Positions 829 to 58,792 of a stretch of 64,000 nt of DNA are shown here, piece after piece (within the stretch, counting starts at the first letter, position 1; each line of letters opens with the position of its first letter). A model generated the notes under the pieces. The model saw only the letters and a program-made list of their open reading frames with translations. It made no database searches and was not told where the DNA came from. Where the stretch lies: positions 1 to 64,000 of the forward strand of contig JABHZW010000050.1 in assembly GCA_018656005.1 (NCBI GenBank), written 5' to 3'. The position numbers were made by a program, and so were the translations under genes. Origin of the DNA: Candidatus Pseudelusimicrobium marinum (GTDB lineage: Bacteria; Elusimicrobiota; Elusimicrobia; Elusimicrobiales; Elusimicrobiaceae).

Positions 829-847
829 ATTATCTCCTATATTGTGT

Positions 848-956
848 ATTTTGAGAAGATTTTTGGTTTTCTTTGCGACGACTAGTAGGTGCAACGCACA
901 CGAGCGAAGCGAGTGTTCCTACTTTAGGAGCAAAAAAACCAAAAAGCACTCAAAAT
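848..956. repeat. Palindromic intergenic element, copy E1
   Basis: A long imperfect inverted repeat fills the gap between dprA and topA. The outer arms (848-872 and 932-956) pair through ATTTTGAG/CTCAAAAT and TTTTTGGTTTT/AAAACCAAAAA. The inner arms (TTTGCGACGACTAGTAGG at 872-889; CCTACTTTAGGAGCAAA at 918-934) match the inner arms of copy E2 in inverted order, and less exactly those of E4. The apex contains the mini-hairpin core GCGAAGC. The right arm ends on the dprA stop codon. Function is unknown; a transcription terminator or RNA-stability element, or a small mobile repeat, are possible. Confidence 0.75.
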
Positions 957-2101
957 TAGTAACTAAAAAATTTATTCTTGCTATATAATCCATCCTTGGA
1001 TGCTAATATCCCCTTAACTTCCAAGTTAAACAATAATGTCGATGCTTCTGATACATTTATGTTTAGCTTGTTTACGATATCGTCCAAACTAAGTTCGCTA
1101 CTTGCAATAAGCTCTAGCGTTTGTTTTTCTATGTCTGATAGGTTCGCTATATTTATACTTTTCTCTTCTTTACTTTTACTATCTTCTACCACGATGTTTT
1201 TCTGAAATTCCATTGGTATCGCATCAATAATATCCTGTCCGCTGAAAAGTGGTGTAGCGCCATCTCTTATCAACATATTTGTACCACCACTTTGAAGACT
1301 GTCTATCGGACCAGGTACTGCAAACACATCTTTGCCTTGTTCCAATGCCAGTTTTGCAGTTATTAATGCTCCACTTTTTTCCTCGCCTTCAATTACCGCT
1401 GTAAACATTGAAAGACCTGCTATTATGCGGTTTCTTCGAGGGAAATGGAACGGAAGTGGTGGTTTATCAAACGGGAGTTCTGATATTATTGCACCACCAT
1501 TATCCAAAATTTCTGTTGCTAATTTTCTGTTTTCTGCTGGATAGCATCGTCCGATGCCTGTGCCAACAACCGAATAGGTTGGCTTGTTTAATGCGACGGC
1601 AGCTTTTTGTGCAGTGCTATCTATACCACGAGCCAAACCACTTACAACTACTATACCTGCACAGCTTAGATCCGCGGAAATTTTATCCGCACATCGTTTA
1701 CCGTAAGGTGTAATTTTTCTCGTACCTACTACGGCAACTTTTATTGCTTGCGGATTAAAATTTCCGCGGATATATAAAACGAGTGGGGGTTCTTTTAGGG
1801 TTTTTAGTGATTCTGGATAATCTTCGTCTTCTAGTAGGAGGATTTTGCCATTTACCTTTTCTGTTTTTGCAATTTCTTCATCTGGGTTTAAAGTTTTTGC
1901 TTCTTTTAGCAAATTTTTTGCACTATCAAGAGAGATTATTTTACTTTCAGCTAACGCCATAGGTGTTTGCTTTAGAATATTTTCTGCTGAGCCGAACACT
2001 TCGATTAGTTTATAGAACCAATCCGCTCGCAGGTAAGTGAACGCATTTAATTGTATTCTAGCCAATCTTTCTTGTTGTGATAATTCCATTTTTGTCGTCA
2101 T
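956..2101 (-). CDS. dprA: DNA processing protein DprA (Smf)
   Basis: Binds incoming single-stranded DNA and loads RecA during natural transformation. The 381-residue protein has an N-terminal helical region (about 1-85), a Rossmann-like core (about 105-310) with VVGTRKITPYG, VSGLARGIDSTAQ, GRCYPAENRKLA and FPRRNRIIAGLS, and a C-terminal winged-helix-like segment. AAGGAAT precedes the start. It lies directly downstream of comM on the same strand, and with prepilin genes elsewhere in the window this makes DNA uptake plausible, though no comEA, comEC or pilus ATPase is visible here. Confidence 0.95.
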   Translation of the reverse strand: MTTKMELSQQERLARIQLNAFTYLRADWFYKLIEVFGSAENILKQTPMALAESKIISLDSAKNLLKEAKTLNPDEEIAKTEKVNGKILLLEDEDYPESLKTLKEPPLVLYIRGNFNPQAIKVAVVGTRKITPYGKRCADKISADLSCAGIVVVSGLARGIDSTAQKAAVALNKPTYSVVGTGIGRCYPAENRKLATEILDNGGAIISELPFDKPPLPFHFPRRNRIIAGLSMFTAVIEGEEKSGALITAKLALEQGKDVFAVPGPIDSLQSGGTNMLIRDGATPLFSGQDIIDAIPMEFQKNIVVEDSKSKEEKSINIANLSDIEKQTLELIASSELSLDDIVNKLNINVSEASTLLFNLEVKGILASKDGLYSKNKFFSY

Positions 2102-16129: not shown

Positions 16130-17020
16130 ATGTTTAATGTATTTCTATTCATTTTACTCGCATTTTTGTGGGGAAGCAGTTTTTTAGTAGTTAAAGATGT
16201 TGTCCATCAAATAGACCCTCTATTCGGTGCTTTTTTACGAGGATTTATAGCACTTATATTTTTTAGTATTTTGTATCTTGTTCGTCGAAAAAGTGTAAGA
16301 GTTGCTAAAAAAGATTTATGGAAACCTTGGGTGCTTGGGCTTTTGCTTATGGGTTTCCCATTTGTAGTAGCTTTTTGGGGACAAAAGTATGTACCAGCAG
16401 GTTTAGGCGGTATATTTAATTCTACCGTACCTATTTGGACATTTATTATGGGTTCCATATTGTTAAAAGGGCAGGATAAATTTTCTTGGACTCGTGCAAG
16501 CGGAGTATTTTTAGGTATTTGTGGTGTGCTTTTAATTTTCACCCCAAAGTTTATGGCAGGTGCAGCTGATAATTTAGCATTACTTGGTGCGGGTGCATTG
16601 CTTATGATGGCTGTTTTTTATGCGATGGGTAATGTGATGATAAAGTATGTTTTAAATACTACCCCAACACTAACTATCGAGGGTAATATATTTCAGCAAC
16701 ATATAATGGGTTCTGCATTTTTATTTTTGTTTTTCTTGAGTTTTGGTGGCACAGTTGGTGCGGAAGTTTTAAATGCAAAAATAATAATGGCAAATGTATA
16801 TATCGCCGTATTTTGCAGTGCAATAGCATTATTGATAATGTTTAGGTTGATACATCAATGGGGTGCATTGCGATTTAGTATGGTTACATATTTAGTGCCA
16901 ATAGTTGCAATTACATTAGATTTATTATTAAATGGAGTAGTACCAAATAAGTATGAAATATTTGGGATGTTAATAATTTTTGCAAGTTTATTTTTAGTTG
17001 AAAGAAATCTGTCATCCTGA
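16130..17020 (+). CDS. EamA/DMT family transporter
   Basis: The 296-residue inner-membrane protein has about ten hydrophobic helices in two EamA repeats, including FLWGSSFLVVKDVV at the start and AFCSAIALLIMFRLI in the second half. It is a drug/metabolite-superfamily exporter with unknown substrate. The ATG at 16130 has TTAGGAG upstream; an earlier in-frame ATG lacks one. The final codons and stop (…S-S-stop) lie within a palindromic repeat starting at 17011, so the repeat defines the C-terminus. It diverges from tdh. Confidence 0.88.
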   Translation: MFNVFLFILLAFLWGSSFLVVKDVVHQIDPLFGAFLRGFIALIFFSILYLVRRKSVRVAKKDLWKPWVLGLLLMGFPFVVAFWGQKYVPAGLGGIFNSTVPIWTFIMGSILLKGQDKFSWTRASGVFLGICGVLLIFTPKFMAGAADNLALLGAGALLMMAVFYAMGNVMIKYVLNTTPTLTIEGNIFQQHIMGSAFLFLFFLSFGGTVGAEVLNAKIIMANVYIAVFCSAIALLIMFRLIHQWGALRFSMVTYLVPIVAITLDLLLNGVVPNKYEIFGMLIIFASLFLVERNLSS

Positions 17021-17084
17021 ACTTGATTCAGGATCCAGGATAAAAAATAAAAATACCTAGATTGCGGATCAAGTCCGCAATGAC
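17011..17084. repeat. Double-hairpin repeat (GTCATTGCGG family), copy 1, inverted
   Basis: Two stem-loops, 17011-17035 (GTCATCCTGAACTTGATTCA…) and 17060-17084 (…CAAGTCCGCAATGAC), are also complementary to each other, so the whole unit can fold as one long hairpin. The other copies are at 17778-17840 and 26118-26181. This copy is reversed and has a longer middle spacer. It supplies the stop codon of the upstream transporter gene. Similar palindromic repeats are scattered in many bacterial genomes. Confidence 0.85.
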
Positions 17085-17102
17085 AATGGGATATAGGATT
17101 TT

Positions 17103-17651
17103 ATGAATAAAAAAGGTTTTACATTAATAGAGTTGTTAGTGGTAGTGCTTATAATAGCAGTACTAGCTTCTATTGCTTTACCAAAATATATGTCAGTAAG
17201 AGACAAGGCACGGTTGTCTGGCTTAATGACTATAGGTAAAAATATCGCAGATGCGCTAGACAGAAGAAGTCTTATAGACGAGGGTGAAGATACTGCTGCA
17301 TTACAAAAACTAGATATAAGTTTTACAAAATATAATGGAACTGATTGTACAAGTATTACTTGTAGAATAAAAATATCAAGTAAGCAATATGTAATTGATC
17401 CTATTTTAAATTATGGCGGGCATGGTTATAATTTTGCTCAAATTTATTCTTATGATGATGAACTTTTAGGAATGCTTAGGGTTCATTCAGAAGGATATCC
17501 TGTTTCTTATACACACAGGCTTTATTGCTACCAAGTATCGGGTTCGTATCAAGATCCAATTAGATCTAGATGTGTAAAAGTAGGTAAGGCAATGGGAGCA
17601 GTAAATGCTCAGTGTGAAGATACTGGAAATGCTTTCTGTACTTTTAACTAA
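17103..17651 (+). CDS. Type IV prepilin-like protein
   Basis: The 182-residue prepilin has leader MNKKG, cleavage before FTLIELLVVV, Glu5 present, and one long hydrophobic helix. The C-terminal part holds two cysteine pairs (DCTSITC near 81-87 and CYQ…RCVKVG near 141-159). The block DALDRRSLIDEGED…LDISF is shared with the four tandem pilins at 34174-36569, so they are paralogues. AGGA lies just before the ATG. It stands alone between a palindromic repeat and a strong terminator. It could be a pilus subunit or a pseudopilin. Confidence 0.88.
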   Translation: MNKKGFTLIELLVVVLIIAVLASIALPKYMSVRDKARLSGLMTIGKNIADALDRRSLIDEGEDTAALQKLDISFTKYNGTDCTSITCRIKISSKQYVIDPILNYGGHGYNFAQIYSYDDELLGMLRVHSEGYPVSYTHRLYCYQVSGSYQDPIRSRCVKVGKAMGAVNAQCEDTGNAFCTFN

Positions 17652-17718: not shown

Positions 17719-17777
17719 TAAAACTAAAACTAAAAAGTACTCCCGAAGGGTACGAGTGTTTTTGTGTAAATTTTTTT

Positions 17778-17840
17778 GTCATTGCGGACTTGATCCGCAA
17801 TCTAGGTTTATTCTGGATCCTGAATCAAGTTCAGAATGAC
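17778..17840. repeat. Double-hairpin repeat (GTCATTGCGG family), copy 2
   Basis: GTCATTGCGGACTTGATCCG at the left end (17778) and its partner TCAAGTTCAGAATGAC ending at 17840, each a hairpin, together a larger palindrome. Same orientation as copy 3. It lies between the pilin terminator and the 3' end of the convergent OsmC-like gene, 6 nt from its stop codon. Confidence 0.85.
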
Positions 17841-17846
17841 AGGTTG

Positions 17847-26108: not shown

Positions 26109-26117
26109 AAACAAATT

Positions 26118-26181
26118 GTCATTGCGGACTTGATCCGCAATCCAGATTTTATCCTAGATTCTGAATCAAGTTCAGAATGAC
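26118..26181. repeat. Double-hairpin repeat (GTCATTGCGG family), copy 3
   Basis: GTCATTGCGGACTTGATCCG at 26118 and its partner TCAAGTTCAGAATGAC ending at 26181, separated by a short variable centre. It is nearly identical to copy 2 (17778) and to the reverse complement of copy 1 (17011). It lies between valS and rdgB and could act as a processing or termination structure. Confidence 0.85.
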
Positions 26182-26194
26182 ATAAATAAATAAT

Positions 26195-26853: not shown

Positions 26854-27780
26854 TTAAATTGTCTGTAAATTACTTCCTACTAAAGCTTTCCAAGTATCGG
26901 AAAAGTCTTTCGGTGGAACAACTTCGTAGCTAACTCTTTTACGGGTTATTGGATGCACAAAAGATATCTTTCGTGAATGTAGCATCAACCGTTTTGCAGT
27001 TGCACCTTTATATAACCAATCCCCGAGAACTGGATAACCTAACCATGCCATATGCACTCTTAATTGGTTTGTGCGACCAGTCTTCGGATATAATTCCGCA
27101 AATGCAAAACCTTTCTTTTGTTGAACAATTTTATATTCGGTAATTGCTTCTCTTCCTACTGGCGATGCTTTAATTTTACCACCCGCAACTCTGCCAATTG
27201 GTACATTTATAATGCCTTGTTTATCTTTTGGTGTGCCACATAAAATTGCATTATAAGTTTTATCCATTTTTCGATTTGCAAAAAGTTCTTTCAACTTATC
27301 TTGCATCTTTTTTGTTTTAGTAAATAACATCACACCACTGGTATCTTTGTCCAATCTATGAACCATACCAACTCTTTCCAAACCTTCTTCCATATCTTTG
27401 GGTTTGTCCGCCAAGAGTATCGATACCAAAGTCTCTTCTGCTGCGAACGCAGCCTCTGGTGTGGTTTCCCATGTTGGACTTAAAGGATGAACTAATAAAC
27501 CAGATGGTTTTCTTATCACGAGTAAATGTTTATCCTCGTGTATGAGTAGTTTTTTAAGTGTAGTTTCTGACGATTTGTTTTCTGGGAAAGTAATTTCTAT
27601 TTCATCATCCAGCTTAAGTATATAAGAAGGTTTTACCACTTCGCCATTAACAGTGATACATTTTTGTTTTATAAGATCTTTTAAAAAACCACGACTAAAT
27701 TCTGGCATTTCGCCAGCGACAAAGGCATCAAGTCTTTCTTCTTCCTCTGTTCTTGTGTATTTGAAATTTTGTTTATCCAT
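26854..27780 (-). CDS. RluD-type pseudouridine synthase
   Basis: RNA pseudouridine synthase, RluA/RluD family. The 308-residue protein has an N-terminal S4 RNA-binding domain (RLDAFVAGEMPEFSRGFLKDLI … ITVNGEVVKPSYIL) and the catalytic core with HRLDKDTSGVMLFTK (catalytic aspartate), TYNAILCG, YPKTGRTNQLRVHMAWLG and MLHSRKISF. It overlaps the 3' end of lgt by 8 nt. The rRNA or tRNA target cannot be told from sequence; RluD-like modification of 23S rRNA is most likely. Confidence 0.92.
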   Translation of the reverse strand: MDKQNFKYTRTEEEERLDAFVAGEMPEFSRGFLKDLIKQKCITVNGEVVKPSYILKLDDEIEITFPENKSSETTLKKLLIHEDKHLLVIRKPSGLLVHPLSPTWETTPEAAFAAEETLVSILLADKPKDMEEGLERVGMVHRLDKDTSGVMLFTKTKKMQDKLKELFANRKMDKTYNAILCGTPKDKQGIINVPIGRVAGGKIKASPVGREAITEYKIVQQKKGFAFAELYPKTGRTNQLRVHMAWLGYPVLGDWLYKGATAKRLMLHSRKISFVHPITRKRVSYEVVPPKDFSDTWKALVGSNLQTI

Positions 27781-28567
27781 TTTTTTTATTCCTGATTGCT
27801 AGTATATATATTAGTATAGCAGTTATAAATATAACTATACTTATAAGCTGAGAGGGGGATATTGAAAATATGAAATTTCCTCGTTCGTCGCCCCTGAAAA
27901 ATTCTATCGCAAACCTTGCAACAGAATACATCGCCATATATAAAACAAATATACTGCCTGTTTTATGTTTTTTATTATTTAAAAAGTGTAATGTTAAAAA
28001 TATTAATAAATTTGCAAATATCTCGTACAACTGGGTTGGATGTAATGGGATATTATGTAAATGATGTGGCACTAAACATTCTGGGTTGCTAAATTTTATT
28101 GCTAGTTTTGAATGCGAAATTTCCCCATAACAACAACCTGCTAAAAAACAACCTATTCTGCCAAACAAATGTCCTAATGCGATTGCTGGAGCGGTAAAAT
28201 CCGCCGTTTTTGAAATGGGGAAATTTCGCTTTCTTATAAAATATACACCACTACAAACAGCACCCACAAAACCACCAAAATATACAAAACCAGAACGGAA
28301 TGTTTTAATGGCATCTATTAATTTTTCAAAAATATTATCCCCGTAGAAACCTGACCAGTGGAATATTATATAGAAAATTTTAGCACCTATTAATGCACCT
28401 AAGATTAGGTAAAAAATATAGTCAAAAAGTTCGGTATTATTTTTAAAAGGAGATTTCGCTTGAGTTTTATATAAATAAAAACCAGCCATTAGATAGCCGA
28501 TTGCATTCATTAGGCCATATGCAGTTATTTCTATGAATCCTAAACTAATTAATGCCTCTGGGTACAT
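27773..28567 (-). CDS. lgt: Prolipoprotein diacylglyceryl transferase
   Basis: Inner-membrane enzyme that attaches diacylglycerol to the lipobox cysteine of prolipoproteins. The 264-residue protein has about seven hydrophobic helices, the Lgt signature region ALGHLFGRIGCFLAGCCYG, and the HPTQLYE motif. AGGAGACAGGAAA precedes the ATG. Its substrates in this window include the lipobox proteins at 3760, 36834 and 50890. Confidence 0.94.
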   Translation of the reverse strand: MYPEALISLGFIEITAYGLMNAIGYLMAGFYLYKTQAKSPFKNNTELFDYIFYLILGALIGAKIFYIIFHWSGFYGDNIFEKLIDAIKTFRSGFVYFGGFVGAVCSGVYFIRKRNFPISKTADFTAPAIALGHLFGRIGCFLAGCCYGEISHSKLAIKFSNPECLVPHHLHNIPLHPTQLYEIFANLLIFLTLHFLNNKKHKTGSIFVLYMAMYSVARFAIEFFRGDERGNFIFSISPSQLISIVIFITAILIYILAIRNKKNG

Positions 28568-28580
28568 TTTCCTGTCTCCT

Positions 28581-28690
28581 CTTTTTAACCCTTTTTTGTT
28601 TTTTTGCTCCTAAAGTCCCGCTACTGCTTCGCAGTATTCGCTGAACGGACTAGTCGTCGCAAAGAAAAACAAAAAATCATTTAAAAATAG
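28581..28690. repeat. Palindromic intergenic element, copy E2
   Basis: Inverted repeat of about 110 nt. The inner arms TTTGCTCCTAAAG (28611-28615) and ACTAGTCGTCGCAAA match those of E1 in opposite order; the outer arms (TTTTTTGTTTT / AAAACAAAAAA, then CTTTTTAA / TTAAAAATAG) are different from E1 but complementary to each other. The apex is CGCTACTGC-TTC-GCAGTATTCGCT, with the triloop hairpin ACTGC-TTC-GCAGT at 28623-28635. It lies between lgt and the HAD gene. Confidence 0.75.
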
Positions 28691-28702
28691 TCGCCAATTT
28701 AT

Positions 28703-33127: not shown

Positions 33128-34150
33128 ATGGATTTTGAAAAACTTAAAAAATTTATTAAAAATAACGATATTCCTTCTTATCGTATCAACCAAATAAGAG
33201 ATGCTATCTATAAGCAAGGCATCACTAATTGGGACGATATTAAGCAATTACCTGCTAATTTAAGGAAGGAACTAGCTGTTAAACAACCGATATTATCGGT
33301 TTTTATGTCTAAAATACAACAATCCAAGCGGGATAAGATAATAAAAGCTCTTCTAACCCTTAAAGACGGCTATAAAATAGAAACCGTATTAATTAAACCT
33401 TATGATAGTTGGAGCGTTTGTGTATCGACACAAGTTGGATGTCAAATAGGTTGTACTTTTTGTCAGACCGGACATATGGGTTTCAAAAGAGATTTGACTG
33501 CTGAAGAAATTTCAGATCAAGTTTTATTTTGGCAGGGTTATTTGAGAAGTAAAAAAATCGATGAACGGATATCGTCAGTTGTATATATGGGAATGGGCGA
33601 ACCGCTTTTGAATTATGATGAAGTTGTAAAATCTATTAAAACTTTATCTGATACTGATTTTCTAAATATCGGACAAAGACATATATCAATTTCGACATCT
33701 GGTATCGCCGATAAAATTAAGAAGTTAGCGACCGATTTACCTCAAGTTAAATTGGCATTGTCATTACATTATACTGATGACAAGTTGCGATCGAAAATAA
33801 TGCCTATAAACAGAAAATTTAATTTACAATCATTACAATTGGCATTAGAGGATTATATCGCTAGAACAAATCGACAAGTTTTTATAGAATATATTTTGAT
33901 ACAAGGTGTTAATGATTCGACAAAAGATTTCAGAAAGTTGGTAAAATGGATTGAGGGTATCAGAGGAAATTATTTATTACATGTTAATGTTATACCGGCG
34001 AATCAGACAAAGAAGTTGAATAATAAAATTACTAATGCTGAAGTTGACGATTTTGTAAAATCATTAAAGAAGGCGAACATTAGTGCGTCCGCTCGCAAAA
34101 GTTTAGGAGCCGACATAAACGCGGCATGTGGTCAACTTGCAACAAAATGA
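33128..34150 (+). CDS. rlmN: Dual-specificity RNA methyltransferase RlmN
   Basis: Radical-SAM enzyme methylating C2 of an adenosine in 23S rRNA and some tRNAs. The 340-residue protein has the CxxxCxxC cluster motif in VGCQIGCTFCQTGHMG near 110-125, GMGEPLLNYDEV, SISTSGIADKI, and the C-terminal catalytic cysteine in ADINAACGQLA. The start MDFEKLKKFIKNND has GAAGAGAAG upstream. It reads toward the pilin cluster, 23 nt before the first pilin. Confidence 0.96.
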   Translation: MDFEKLKKFIKNNDIPSYRINQIRDAIYKQGITNWDDIKQLPANLRKELAVKQPILSVFMSKIQQSKRDKIIKALLTLKDGYKIETVLIKPYDSWSVCVSTQVGCQIGCTFCQTGHMGFKRDLTAEEISDQVLFWQGYLRSKKIDERISSVVYMGMGEPLLNYDEVVKSIKTLSDTDFLNIGQRHISISTSGIADKIKKLATDLPQVKLALSLHYTDDKLRSKIMPINRKFNLQSLQLALEDYIARTNRQVFIEYILIQGVNDSTKDFRKLVKWIEGIRGNYLLHVNVIPANQTKKLNNKITNAEVDDFVKSLKKANISASARKSLGADINAACGQLATK

Positions 34151-34173
34151 TAAAAATGATGTATAATAAAAGT

Positions 34174-34710
34174 ATGAGAAATAAAAAAGCATTTACATTG
34201 ATAGAATTATTGGTAGTAGTATTGATAATAGCAATACTTGCAGCGATAGCTTTACCGAAATATCAAGTTACGAGGGATAGAGCTCATCTTTCAGGATTGA
34301 TGACGATAGGAAAAAATGTTGCTGACGCAATGGATAGAAGAAGTCTTTTTGATGATGTTTATGATGGTAATGCTTTGGAAAAACTGGATATAAGTTTTAA
34401 GGATAATACAGGAAGTGATTGCACGAGTGGTACTTGTAGAATAAAGGTATCAGGTAAAGACTATTCGCTTGTTCCTTATTTGAATTTAACTGGTCTAGGT
34501 AAAAATCTTGTTGAGTTTATTTCTTATACGAATACAGCTTTTGCAAGATTTACTGTTTATTCAAATGGATATAATTCTTCATATCTATACAAACTGGAGT
34601 GCACATATTCGTGGGGTAATGTGGAGGTAACAATAGATTCTGATAGATGCTTAAAGTTAGGTGCAAGTATGGGTGCAACTTGTACTACAAGTATTTGTAC
34701 TTGGAGTTAA
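34174..34710 (+). CDS. Type IV prepilin, tandem array copy 1
   Basis: 178 residues. Leader MRNKKA, then FTLIELLVVVLIIAILAAIA with Glu5, then the shared block HLSGLMTIGKNVADAMDRR and cysteine pairs (DCTSGTC; C…C near the end, ending TSICTWS). TATAAT at 34162-34167 lies exactly six bases before the ATG and there is no ribosome binding site, so the mRNA is probably leaderless. It is followed by its own terminator, so it is transcribed separately from copies 2-4. The most diverged of the first three copies. Confidence 0.88.
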   Translation: MRNKKAFTLIELLVVVLIIAILAAIALPKYQVTRDRAHLSGLMTIGKNVADAMDRRSLFDDVYDGNALEKLDISFKDNTGSDCTSGTCRIKVSGKDYSLVPYLNLTGLGKNLVEFISYTNTAFARFTVYSNGYNSSYLYKLECTYSWGNVEVTIDSDRCLKLGASMGATCTTSICTWS

Positions 34711-34722
34711 AATTTCGAAACT

Positions 34723-34762
34723 AATTGTAAAAAAATCTGCTTAAAAAAGCAGGTTTTTTACA
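34723..34762 (+). terminator. Intrinsic terminator after pilin copy 1
   Basis: AATTGTAAAAAAATCTGCTT pairs with AAGCAGGTTTTTTACAATT around AAAA, with a T-run in the right arm. The left part (CTAATTGTAAAAAAAT) also occurs after pilin copies 2 and 3, where it runs directly into the next ATG instead of completing the hairpin. Confidence 0.8.
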
Positions 34763-34837
34763 ATTATTCTGCTTTCTCTTTGTGTGAAAATTAGAGCGAT
34801 AACTGTGTTTCTTAATAAAATGATGTATAATAAAAAT

Positions 34838-35386
34838 ATGAGAAATAAAAAAGCATTTACATTGATTGAATTGTTGGTGGTAGTATTGATAATCGCAATA
34901 CTTGCAGCGATAGCATTACCAAAATATATGGTAGCTAGAGATAGGGCTCATCTTGCAGGTTTAATGACAATTGGAAAAAATGTTAATGATGCATTAGATA
35001 GACGAAGTTTGTTTGATGATGCCGCAGATGGTGGTGCTTTAGAAAAAATAGATTTAAGTTTTAAGGATAATACAGGAAGTGAATGTACTGGTGGAAGTTG
35101 TAGAATAACAGTATCAGGTAAGGATTATTTATTGTTTCCTTATCTAAATGATGGTAGTACTGTGGGGCAAAATCAAACTTCATTTTTTTCTTTTACTAAT
35201 TTATCTTTTGGGTGGTTTATTGTATATGCCGAAGGACATAGTAATTCTGCTTTGTATAAGATTTATTGTTATCAATTAAGTGGTTCGTATGCAGATCCAG
35301 ATGCAGATAGATGTGAAAGAATGGCTGCAAGTATGGGAGCAACTTGTAGTGGCTCTAGTGGTACACGAAGTTGTACTTGGTCTTAA
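34838..35386 (+). CDS. Type IV prepilin, tandem array copy 2
   Basis: 182 residues, MRNKKA^FTLIELLVVV. TATAAT at 34826-34831 lies exactly six bases before the ATG, with no ribosome binding site, so a leaderless start is likely. The first two thirds are almost identical in DNA to copy 3 (34908-35185 versus 35485-35762), while the C-terminal third, with cysteines in YCYQLSGSYADPDADRCERM, differs. This indicates recent duplication or gene conversion with diversification of the surface-exposed end. Confidence 0.88.
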   Translation: MRNKKAFTLIELLVVVLIIAILAAIALPKYMVARDRAHLAGLMTIGKNVNDALDRRSLFDDAADGGALEKIDLSFKDNTGSECTGGSCRITVSGKDYLLFPYLNDGSTVGQNQTSFFSFTNLSFGWFIVYAEGHSNSALYKIYCYQLSGSYADPDADRCERMAASMGATCSGSSGTRSCTWS

Positions 35387-35414
35387 AAATTTTCAAAACT
35401 AATTGTAAAAAAAT

Positions 35415-35963
35415 ATGAGAAATAAAAAAGCATTTACATTGATAGAACTTTTGGTGGTAGTATTGATAATCGCAATACTCGCATCGATAGCATTACCAAA
35501 ATATATGGTAGCTAGAGATAGGGCTCATCTTGCAGGTTTAATGACAATTGGAAAAAATGTTAATGATGCATTAGATAGACGAAGTTTGTTTGATGATGCC
35601 GCAGATAGTGGTGCTTTAGAAAAAATAGATTTAAGTTTTAAGGATAATACAGGAAGTGAATGTACTGGTGGAAGTTGTAGAATAACAGTATCAGGTAAGG
35701 ATTATTTAATCTTTCCTTATCTAAATGATGGTGGTACTGTTGGGCAAAATCAAACTACATTTTTTTCTCATACTAATACAGCTTTTGGATGGTTTATTGT
35801 ATATGCCGAAGGAAATAGTAATACCAATTTATATAGACTTTATTGTTATCAAATGAGTGGATCATATGTAGATCCAGACGAAGATAGATGTGTGAGGTTA
35901 GGACAGAGTATGGGTGCAACTTGTTCTGGTTCTTCTGGAGCACAAAGTTGTGTTTGGACTTAA
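35415..35963 (+). CDS. Type IV prepilin, tandem array copy 3
   Basis: 182 residues, nearly identical to copy 2 until about residue 115. It starts 28 nt after copy 2, and the intergenic sequence is a truncated form of the terminator seen after copy 1. No ribosome binding site or clear -10 box lies upstream, so translation presumably depends on the copy 2 transcript. Cysteine pairs ECTGGSC, CYQ…RCVRLG and the ending SCVWT are kept. Confidence 0.87.
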   Translation: MRNKKAFTLIELLVVVLIIAILASIALPKYMVARDRAHLAGLMTIGKNVNDALDRRSLFDDAADSGALEKIDLSFKDNTGSECTGGSCRITVSGKDYLIFPYLNDGGTVGQNQTTFFSHTNTAFGWFIVYAEGNSNTNLYRLYCYQMSGSYVDPDEDRCVRLGQSMGATCSGSSGAQSCVWT

Positions 35964-35990
35964 AATTTTCAAAACTAATTGTAAAAAAAT

Positions 35991-36569
35991 ATGAGAAATA
36001 AAAAAGCATTTACATTGATAGAACTTTTGGTGGTAGTACTTATTATCGCAGTACTTGCTGCCATTGCTTTACCCAAATATATGGTAGCAAGAGATAGAAC
36101 ACATCTTGCAGGATTAGTGACAATAGCTAACAATGTTAATAATGCATTAGATAGAAGAAGTTTATTCGACGAGAGTATGAATATTACAGCTTTGGATAGA
36201 TTAGATATAAATCTTATAGATGCAGCAGGAACTGGTTGTGATACTAGTAATCTTGATGGTGATGGTCTTCCTGGTACTTGTAGAATAAAAACATCGGGCA
36301 AAGAATATGGCATTTATCCCCTTTTAAATAGTGGTAGTGTCGGTGTTAATTATACTACATTTCTTTCTCGTACAAACAACTCTTTTGGAATGCTTATTGT
36401 TTATACTAAAAATTCTAAAGAAACGCTCAATTCTGGATATAATATTAGACTTGACTGTGACTATGTAAGTATCAATCCATCTGTAAATGAAAGTAGATGT
36501 GTAAGACTAGCAAACAGTTTGGGTGATGTTTGTATTGTAGGAGATGCCGATTGTAGATTTGATTACTAA
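35991..36569 (+). CDS. Type IV prepilin, tandem array copy 4
   Basis: 192 residues with the same leader and hydrophobic helix, but more diverged beyond residue 60; it carries an insertion (NLDGDGLPGTC) before the first cysteine pair and a different C-terminal region (CDYVSINPSVNESRCVRLAN). The 27-nt spacer before it equals the one before copy 3. Last gene of the copy 2-3-4 operon. Probably a minor pilin variant. Confidence 0.85.
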   Translation: MRNKKAFTLIELLVVVLIIAVLAAIALPKYMVARDRTHLAGLVTIANNVNNALDRRSLFDESMNITALDRLDINLIDAAGTGCDTSNLDGDGLPGTCRIKTSGKEYGIYPLLNSGSVGVNYTTFLSRTNNSFGMLIVYTKNSKETLNSGYNIRLDCDYVSINPSVNESRCVRLANSLGDVCIVGDADCRFDY

Positions 36570-57473: not shown

Positions 57474-57500
57474 TTATGAATTAATTTTTAGTAAATTTTT

Positions 57501-57704
57501 ATTTCCTCTCCCTTTGGGAGAGGACGACTAGTTCGAAGAACTAGCGAGGTGAGGGCTATGTTTCGTAGCTTATAATTTATAAGAAAACAAAGAAGCATAG
57601 CCCTCACCCCAACCCTCTCCCAAAGGGAGAGGGAGTAAATCTTTTCATAAATTCGCAAAGGGAGAGGGAATAGGAAGTATTTTATATCTCTCTCAACGAG
57701 AGAG
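57501..57704. repeat. Compound palindromic repeat region (CCCTCTCCC family)
   Basis: Several hairpins in a row: CCTCTCCC-TTT-GGGAGAGG (57505-57523), CTAGTTC-GAA-GAACTAG (57528-57544), a long-range pair GGTGAGGGCTATG / CATAGCCCTCACC (57548-57560 with 57596-57608), CCCTCTCCC-AAA-GGGAGAGGG (57613-57633) and CTCTCTC-AAC-GAGAGAG (57688-57704). CCCTCTCCC-type repeats are widespread in bacterial genomes. It fills most of the 312-nt gap after the thioredoxin fusion gene; no gene is seen here. Confidence 0.85.
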
Positions 57705-58416: not shown

Positions 58417-58491
58417 TGGCGCTCCCTAGGAGAATCGAACTCCTCTTTTCGGCTTGAAAAGCCGACGTCCTAACCGATAGACGAAGGGAGC
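58417..58491 (-). tRNA. tRNA-Glu (TTC)
   Basis: Minus-strand cloverleaf, acceptor GCTCCCT/AGGGAGC, D-arm TTCGTCTATCGGTTAGGA, anticodon loop TTTTCAA (anticodon TTC), T-arm GGAGTTCGATTCTCC. The discriminator G is followed by an encoded CCA (58417-58419), unlike the other two tRNA genes. Confidence 0.96.
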
Positions 58492-58498
58492 TTTTTGC

Positions 58499-58630
58499 TT
58501 CTGCTTTTTGGTAAATTTTTATTTTTTTGTTTCCTTAAGTAGGGGTCCTCGCATACGCTCGGTCGTTCCTCCCTACTCTGCGTTACAAAGAAAATAAAAA
58601 TTTTCTCAAAAATCCTCGCAAAAAGCAGAA
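58499..58630. repeat. Palindromic intergenic element, copy E4, between two tRNA genes
   Basis: Outer arms TTCTGCTTTTTG (58499-58510) and CAAAAAGCAGAA (58619-58630) pair, continue through AATTTTTATTTT-type arms, and lead to inner arms ending AAGTAGGG / CCCTACT related to E1 (TTTG…TAGG and CCTA…CAAA). The apex (GTCCTCGCATACGCTCGGTC) differs from other copies. Confidence 0.7.
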
Positions 58631-58668: not shown

Positions 58669-58740
58669 TACGCCCGGTGCGGCTCGAACGCACGACCTCC
58701 CGCTTAAAAGGCGGATGCTCTACCACTGAGCTACGGGCGC
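58669..58740 (-). tRNA. tRNA-Lys (TTT)
   Basis: Minus-strand cloverleaf, acceptor GCGCCCG/CGGGCGT (G-T end pair), D-arm GCTCAGTGGTAGAGC, anticodon loop CTTTTAA (anticodon TTT), T-arm GTGCGTTCGAGCCGCAC. No CCA encoded. Its first two bases are part of a 25-bp perfect hairpin upstream. Confidence 0.96.
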
Positions 58741-58792
58741 GTTTTTATTTCCTATTCTGCAAAGCTATTTGCAGAATAGGAAATAAAAACGC
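58739..58792. repeat. Perfect 25-bp hairpin abutting tRNA-Lys
   Basis: Arm 58739-58763 (GCGTTTTTATTTCCTATTCT…) pairs without mismatch with 58768-58792 around the loop GCTA. It includes the first two bases of tRNA-Lys. It may be the 5' leader structure of the tRNA transcript or an inserted palindrome. Confidence 0.9.

Follow-up and report, generated by a model that had tools for sequence, protein, structure and literature searches.

A mobile, non-coding palindromic repeat with a predicted kinked-hairpin fold is dispersed in Elusimicrobiaceae genomes

Here we describe a dispersed palindromic repeat of the Elusimicrobiaceae, a family of gut bacteria, that is mobile, non-coding, and structured. 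The repeat is 130-200 bp long, occupies dozens of intergenic gaps, contains no gene, and is predicted to fold into a long kinked hairpin. We directly observed its dispersed copies, its presence or absence at orthologous sites, the compensated changes in its arms, and its conserved asymmetric loops; sister species differ at some sites by the arrival or departure of a whole copy. We hold with about as much confidence as doubt that this is a non-autonomous mobile element of the family that functions as one folded strand and is recognised through its fold.

The window is the whole stretch of 64,000 nucleotides from Candidatus Pseudelusimicrobium marinum that was analysed. Within it, the original prediction had singled out three palindromes (E1, E2, and E4) with shared inner arms and with outer arms that are private to each copy and pair within it. 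All three were recovered in their places, both in the sequence and with a covariance model (Table 1), and the observation made on them is confirmed as real and was understated. The inner arms had appeared in swapped order in E2 because this copy lies on the minus strand. E1 sits between an ORF at 956-2101 (minus strand) and the start of its left-hand neighbour gene, and the 3' end of E2 touches the start of an ORF at 27773-28567 (minus strand). E4 is flanked by tRNA-Lys (58669-58740, minus strand) and tRNA-Glu (58417-58491, minus strand), with its 3' end touching the latter; its kink-turn-like loop has diverged, and its C-stem is compensated to TTTGT/ACAAA. The probable left-arm remnant in Table 1 was called because it looks like certain other copies (e.g., C41:17434 and C30:18465) and has no model match.

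Table 1. Positions in the window of the three copies, the parts of E1, and a probable remnant.
Feature	Position	Strand	Basis
E1, full model span	838..970	+	covariance model, 133.8 bits
E1 outer stem, left side TTTTGAG (partner CTCAAAA at 949-955)	849..855	+	sequence; helix 1
E1 main arm, left side TTTTTGGTTTT	860..870	+	sequence; helix 2
E1 TTTGC stem, GAC-GA loop strand, and CTAGT (bulged strand of the kink-turn-like loop)	872..886	+	
E1 variable apical hairpin region, CGAGC..GCGAG type	887..917	+	sequence
E1 return strand CCTACTTTAGGAGCAAA with partner GA and GCAAA stem	918..934	+	
E1 main arm, right side AAAACCAAAAA	935..945	+	sequence; helix 2
E2, full model span (core 28603-28663)	28567..28698	-	118.2 bits
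E4, full model span	58490..58623	-	119.9 bits
Probable left-arm remnant (CTCCCGAAGGGTACGAGTGTTTTTGTGTAAATTTTTT), then directly another repeat (TGTCATTGCGGACTTGATCCGCAATC)	17738..17777	+	read by eye

The window also holds other repeats. Repeats of ~70-80 bp at 17006-17087 and 17776-17845 (TGTCATCCTGAACTTGATTCAGGATCC, TTGCGGATCAAGTCCGCAATGACA) flank, in inverted orientation, an ORF at 17103-17651, and related copies also occur at 26115-26182. At 34126-36569, related ORFs of ~180-200 aa follow one another, with long direct repeats (repeat family D1); these ORFs are also related to 17094-17651. A further long palindrome at 57486-57651 (CCTCTCCCTTTGGGAGAGG ... CCTCTCCCAAAGGGAGAGG) contains ACGACTAGTTCG, which resembles the core loop strand, and a hairpin at 58741-58790 (CGTTTTTATTTCCTATTCTGCAAA-GCTA-TTTGCAGAATAGGAAATAAAAACG), with a near-perfect stem of ~24 bp, adjoins tRNA-Lys.

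Copies were counted with an exact core pattern and with the covariance model, which was built from an alignment of 14 copies of the window's own genome; the consensus structure of this alignment contains 11 pairs that are compensated on both sides. The own genome (1.2 Mb) holds 15 exact core-pattern copies, against 0 for a reversed-pattern control, and 70 model matches at E<=0.001, or ~67 without reverse-strand echoes. Within the same family, the model found 57 copies in G006, 26 in G010, 25 in each of G012 and G020, 24 in G009, and 14 in G016, so that the inner arms, far from being confined to the window, recur ~67 times in the own genome and 14-57 times in six relatives. Low-copy relatives were G014 (2), G021 (1), and G022 (1), with most sister genomes having 0-2 copies. 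At its sensitivity, the model found no copies in the remaining genomes of the family, among them G001, G002, G007, and G018, though these four share a genus with carriers, and none in 16 genomes of the sister family; because the model was built on one genome, such zero counts may partly reflect divergence. Exact core matches in genome_contigs came from Elusimicrobiota only, and viral_contigs gave none, so no viral carrier was seen. With Rfam, the window yielded tRNAs only, and single elements matched weakly, all below the gathering score; a literature search of partial coverage returned nothing relevant on Elusimicrobium palindromes or on REP sequences with a k-turn. Copies at different loci have indels in common: 5 copies carry a GGGGCTTGCCCC-type insert in their left arm and 4 carry a CTGGGAGCCAGCCCCTGG-type insert in their right arm, which indicates copying of the element.

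From the outside inwards, the consensus of the element begins with an outermost region (TTTTACGAG / GACGAAGTAAAA), followed by the stem TTTTGAG/CTCAAAA and an internal loop ATGA/GCA. Further in lie an 11-bp AT-rich arm, a bulged C, and the stem TTTGC/GCAAA, and then an asymmetric loop GACGA/GGA, a short stem AGTAGG/CCTACT, and a variable apex, of which there are two main classes among the copies. Kink-turns combine a C stem, a 3-nt bulge, and sheared G·A pairs (PMC9723947), an arrangement that the asymmetric loop appears to match in most copies, as judged from its sequence. Among 46 aligned own-genome copies, the 1b·1n pair is G·A, the 3-nt bulge ends in C, and 3n is G in 46/46; at the second G·A, 2b is A in 42/46 and 2n is G in 45/46. 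The asymmetry of the loop (GACGA vs AGGA) is retained in these 46 copies. One G·A only is present in the G009 copies and in a small number from the own genome, among them L014 (C62:13304).

Several features of the apex and flanks are recorded here in their own right. At C11:19201-19399 and C19:18952-19138 of the own genome, the apex is replaced by a different repeat that starts with TGTCATT and has the common ending GATGACTCCCTACGGGG. Although their arms differ, L006 (C36), L004, and L011 have the identical apex AGTCCGTTCAGCGAATACTGCGAAGCAGTAGCGGGACT, and slight variants of it turn up inside shells built of another type of arm (CGAGGCGTTTTGAACCG), as though apices and arms were modules that can be recombined. 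In G012/G020 copies (e.g., L017, L018, L028, and L042), a conserved TGCAGACTTCCTATT-like tail follows the 3' end and precedes the TATAAT-like box of the next gene.

We found that the arms pair within each copy beyond chance, as had been predicted. In the 46-copy alignment, 94.2% of structure cells are paired, as are 98.6% of those in the main arm helix (helix 2). The covariation score is 0.356, above all 500 shuffles (0.118 +/- 0.008), which leave shared ancestry unremoved, and it falls to <=0.117 when partners are slid by one to three columns, a control that keeps shared ancestry. Changes on both sides occur at 17 pairs, with 170 two-sided changes vs 50 in shuffles. Variable arm pairs match their own partner arm at 97.6% and another copy's arm at 75.3%. 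These covariation and own/other-arm tests replaced a first test of flank complementarity (60-nt free local alignment) that was too permissive, and the covariation in own-genome arms shows flanks more self-complementary than random. The description of the outer arms as private held in part: they vary between copies and are compensated within them, but they are not unrelated. Arms in the own genome share the consensus TTTTACGAGTATTTTGAGATGATTTTTTRTTTTC ... AAAAYAAAAAAGCACTCAAAAGACGAAGTAAAA with compensated substitutions, near-private outermost arms being present in some copies (e.g., C36:9763 and C17:17715). The outermost arms of G009, which are 27-28 bp long (27-31 bp across G009/G006), come close to private, with 64% mean identity between seven copies and 97% complementarity within them, and still share a loose consensus near AAGRTTGYAGAAYRTTNYTAACCYGCYG.

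Mismatches in the stems carry a further signal. Over copies from G000, G020, and G012 and 17 other loci, in an alignment that scores all mismatches alike, isolated stem mismatches are G·U-type in 35 cases vs A·C-type in 16 (binomial 0.011), an excess that does not represent 35 independent events because copies share ancestry. The main arm helix of the 46-copy alignment has 16 G·U and 1 A·C, which in our reading of the rows come to ~8-9 separate G·U cases vs 1 A·C, and G·A-type mismatches, which mark loops, number 177 vs 7 of C·T-type. A double-strand process would yield the two types in equal numbers, since a G·U-type mismatch read on one strand is an A·C-type mismatch on the other. Together, the putative kink-turn-like loop, the preference for G·U over A·C, and the asymmetric loops favour selection acting on a single folded strand, and not only homogenisation of the arms at the DNA level. 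The selected strand may be RNA or single-stranded DNA, which are not separable here; in folded DNA, too, G·T is preferred to A·C.

Evidence of movement comes from G006 and G009, which are ~85% identical across matched flanks. Four polymorphic sites were resolved: L045, L030, and L038 are filled in G009 and empty in G006, and L214 is filled in G006 and empty in G009 (L038 and L214 were found by locus-flank comparison and then read base by base). The L030 insert, 199 bp long, separates a stop codon from the start codon that follows, and the empty sites read TAATTATG in G006 and TAACTATG in the outgroup G001; because the outgroup is also empty, this insert is a gain, and L030 is the only site at which direction was outgroup-polarised. 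At all four sites the private arms lie inside the insert, and the empty sites have neither arm. Reading the junctions of the four filled/empty pairs by eye, we saw no flanking direct repeat that would mark target duplication. Genes are intact at orthologous sites without the element. In G020 and G012, the element is present in both at four aligned places; at one of these four, C11:81708, the outer arms are of different subtypes. G012 has an ordinary terminator hairpin at C9:40695, where G020 has the element, and arm remnants only at C9:134891. Other G020-only sites show larger differences of 1.2-1.4 kb on the 5' side, which prompted a cassette model in which gene and element move together; this was dropped because at the G006/G009 sites the element was inserted by itself.

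Two candidate mobilisers were considered and rejected. Y1_Tnp (PF01797) was not found in the carriers G000, G009, G010, G012, G014, G016, and G020, own genome included and some assemblies being incomplete, and was present in the carrier G006 and in some non-carriers, so that a Y1 transposase does not track the element. Among 20 genomes, RVT_1 was detected only in G012, G020, and weakly in G005, and is not associated with the element, which led us to reject a reverse transcriptase. Searches of the own genome for an autonomous version with half-elements gave only orphans directly beside other copies, and left- and right-half searches found no coding element between the halves.

The copies also bear marks of template switching, which between inverted repeats is known to produce interior inversion and arm homogenisation (PMC8604942). 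At C19:18669, the left and right outer arms appear as reverse complements of their usual forms, around an inner part in the usual orientation; this relative inversion in one copy indicates that template switching also acts. A left half-element and its flank are duplicated directly before a complete element at C42:2755 and C13:6907, and at one shared site, the left-arm changes in G012 match the right arm. Homogenisation alone is insufficient because the conserved asymmetric internal loops would be erased.

With respect to genes, the 3' end lies <=16 nt from a gene or tRNA boundary in 62/75 own-genome copies, compared with 25.9 +/- 2.9 (maximum 37 in 20,000 trials) when the element is placed uniformly in its own spacer; the 75 loci include a few low-scoring or composite ones, and single distances may be off, as gene calls come from a simple ORF rule and ARAGORN. 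Only 11/75 copies have their 5' end that close. The nearest gene on the 3' side is on the same strand in 32 cases and on the opposite strand in 44, without strong bias, and both orientations relative to both neighbouring genes occur. This 3'-end placement at gene boundaries is not explained by simple mobility.

In the reading that we prefer, the functional form would be one folded strand, either RNA or single-stranded DNA during replication. A protein would recognise the fold, with its fixed-spacing stems and kink-turn-like G·A loops, and not the sequence of the arms, and would copy the element and insert it between genes, outer arms included, without target duplication. Arm sequence would then drift while pairing and loops are retained, and polymerase template switching at the palindrome would add arm homogenisation, interior inversion, and half-element duplications. 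A more specific version is offered tentatively and may well be wrong: the element would be recognised and copied as folded RNA or single strand through its kink-turn-like loops, by an enzyme other than a Y1 transposase or a usual reverse transcriptase, and its ends could vary if paired.

The co-varying arms are better accounted for by folded-strand selection combined with template switching than by insertion into hairpins that were there before. The original prediction had proposed, as its first option, that a shared core entered each locus at the apex of a pre-existing hairpin, and the strong differences between loci in the outermost arms of G009, like the other repeats at the apex in C11:19201 and C19:18952, would fit such a history. 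The arms of different copies are nevertheless related by consensus, and at four sites they belong to the insert, the empty sister sites having neither; with no target duplication seen, this refutes insertion into pre-existing hairpins, to which we assign next to no probability. Its second option, outward growth or template switching, is supported in part, by the inverted inner part and the left-half duplications, but homogenisation alone would erase the asymmetric loops. In a related account, the copies would be inert palindromes whose arms are complementary only because template switching copies one arm onto the other. The inverted interior at C19:18669 is a known product of that process (PMC8604942), and the half-element and flank duplications at C42:2755 and C13:6907 and the matching arm changes in G012 favour it as well, but the asymmetric loop survives with its G·A in 46/46 copies, and G·U mismatches outnumber A·C mismatches, between which a double-strand process would not discriminate; we consider this decidedly unlikely. 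Selection for a long RNA stem, the remaining option, is the best supported of the three, in the form of a folded single strand (RNA or single-stranded DNA).

Two other accounts concern what the element does and what moves it. It could be a host-functional structured RNA or transcript-boundary element that ends, protects, or processes the transcripts of its neighbours, its spread being incidental. The excess of 3' ends at boundaries (62/75 vs 25.9 expected), the G020 copy whose place in G012 is taken by an ordinary terminator hairpin, and the conservation of loops and pairing in species-specific copies are what such a role would leave, and yet copies lie in both orientations to both neighbour genes, the stem is followed by no U-run (the strand is T-rich 5' and A-rich 3' in either reading), and genes are intact at orthologous sites without copies, all of which makes this account unlikely. 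Alternatively, the element could be an ordinary MITE whose terminal inverted repeats are the substrate of a transposase of the DDE or a similar type; such a MITE would show the same 130-200 bp length, long inverted arms, intergenic location, lack of coding sequence, and copy number differing among relatives. We judge this very improbable, given that target duplication was not seen at four sites, that the termini of G009 copies are the most variable and not the conserved part, and that conserved internal loops are not expected of such elements.

Among known systems, REP and REPIN sequences are dispersed intergenic palindromes that form hairpins in single-stranded DNA or RNA and are non-autonomous mobile DNA (PMC3116915, PMC3733652). 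The element resembles REP/REPINs with their RAYT (Y1, IS200/IS605-like) transposases in being dispersed, intergenic, palindromic, and non-autonomous. REPs are defined as 20-40 bp palindromes with a terminal GTAG or CGTC tag (PMC3733652), whereas the element has 130-200 bp, concentric stems, asymmetric loops, and variable ends, its CGACG sits in an internal loop, and no RAYT (Y1_Tnp) gene was found in most carrier genomes. Rickettsia palindromic elements and other CGTC-tagged REPs have no dedicated transposase, some being found in reduced genomes (PMC3733652); CGACG/CGTCG likewise occurs in the core of the element, but in an internal loop and not at a palindrome end, and the element is several times longer. 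Bacterial MITEs (NEMIS, ERIC, RUP, etc.) are non-coding, gene-adjacent sequences of 70-300 bp with inverted arms that can fold in transcripts (PMC3733652). The element falls within this length range and shares the inverted arms and lack of coding sequence, but its ends are not constant, it has a conserved kink-turn-like loop, and no target duplication was seen at resolved sites. Kink-turn RNA motifs are bound by YbxF/L7Ae-type proteins, as in OLE RNA (PMC9723947); by sequence match only, most copies would have the C stem, 3-nt bulge, tandem G·A, and second (NC) stem of such motifs, whereas G009 copies and a few own-genome copies keep a single G·A. Unlike intrinsic terminators, the element has a stem without a U-run, with T-rich sequence before it and A-rich sequence after it.

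Integron attC sites, at which recombination takes place, are recognised in the form of folded single strands and have complementary arms of variable sequence. The element may be analogous to them, having variable complementary arms and, in our reading, being recognised as a folded single strand. Conserved ends are what defines most small bacterial repeats. In this element, and most clearly in G009, it is the internal loops that are conserved and the ends that vary most, a pattern that points to recognition of shape. The filled and empty sites of G006 and G009, together with the ~67 own-genome variants, make the question of the mobiliser directly testable, and the same material makes it directly testable whether selection or template switching is the keeper of arm pairing.
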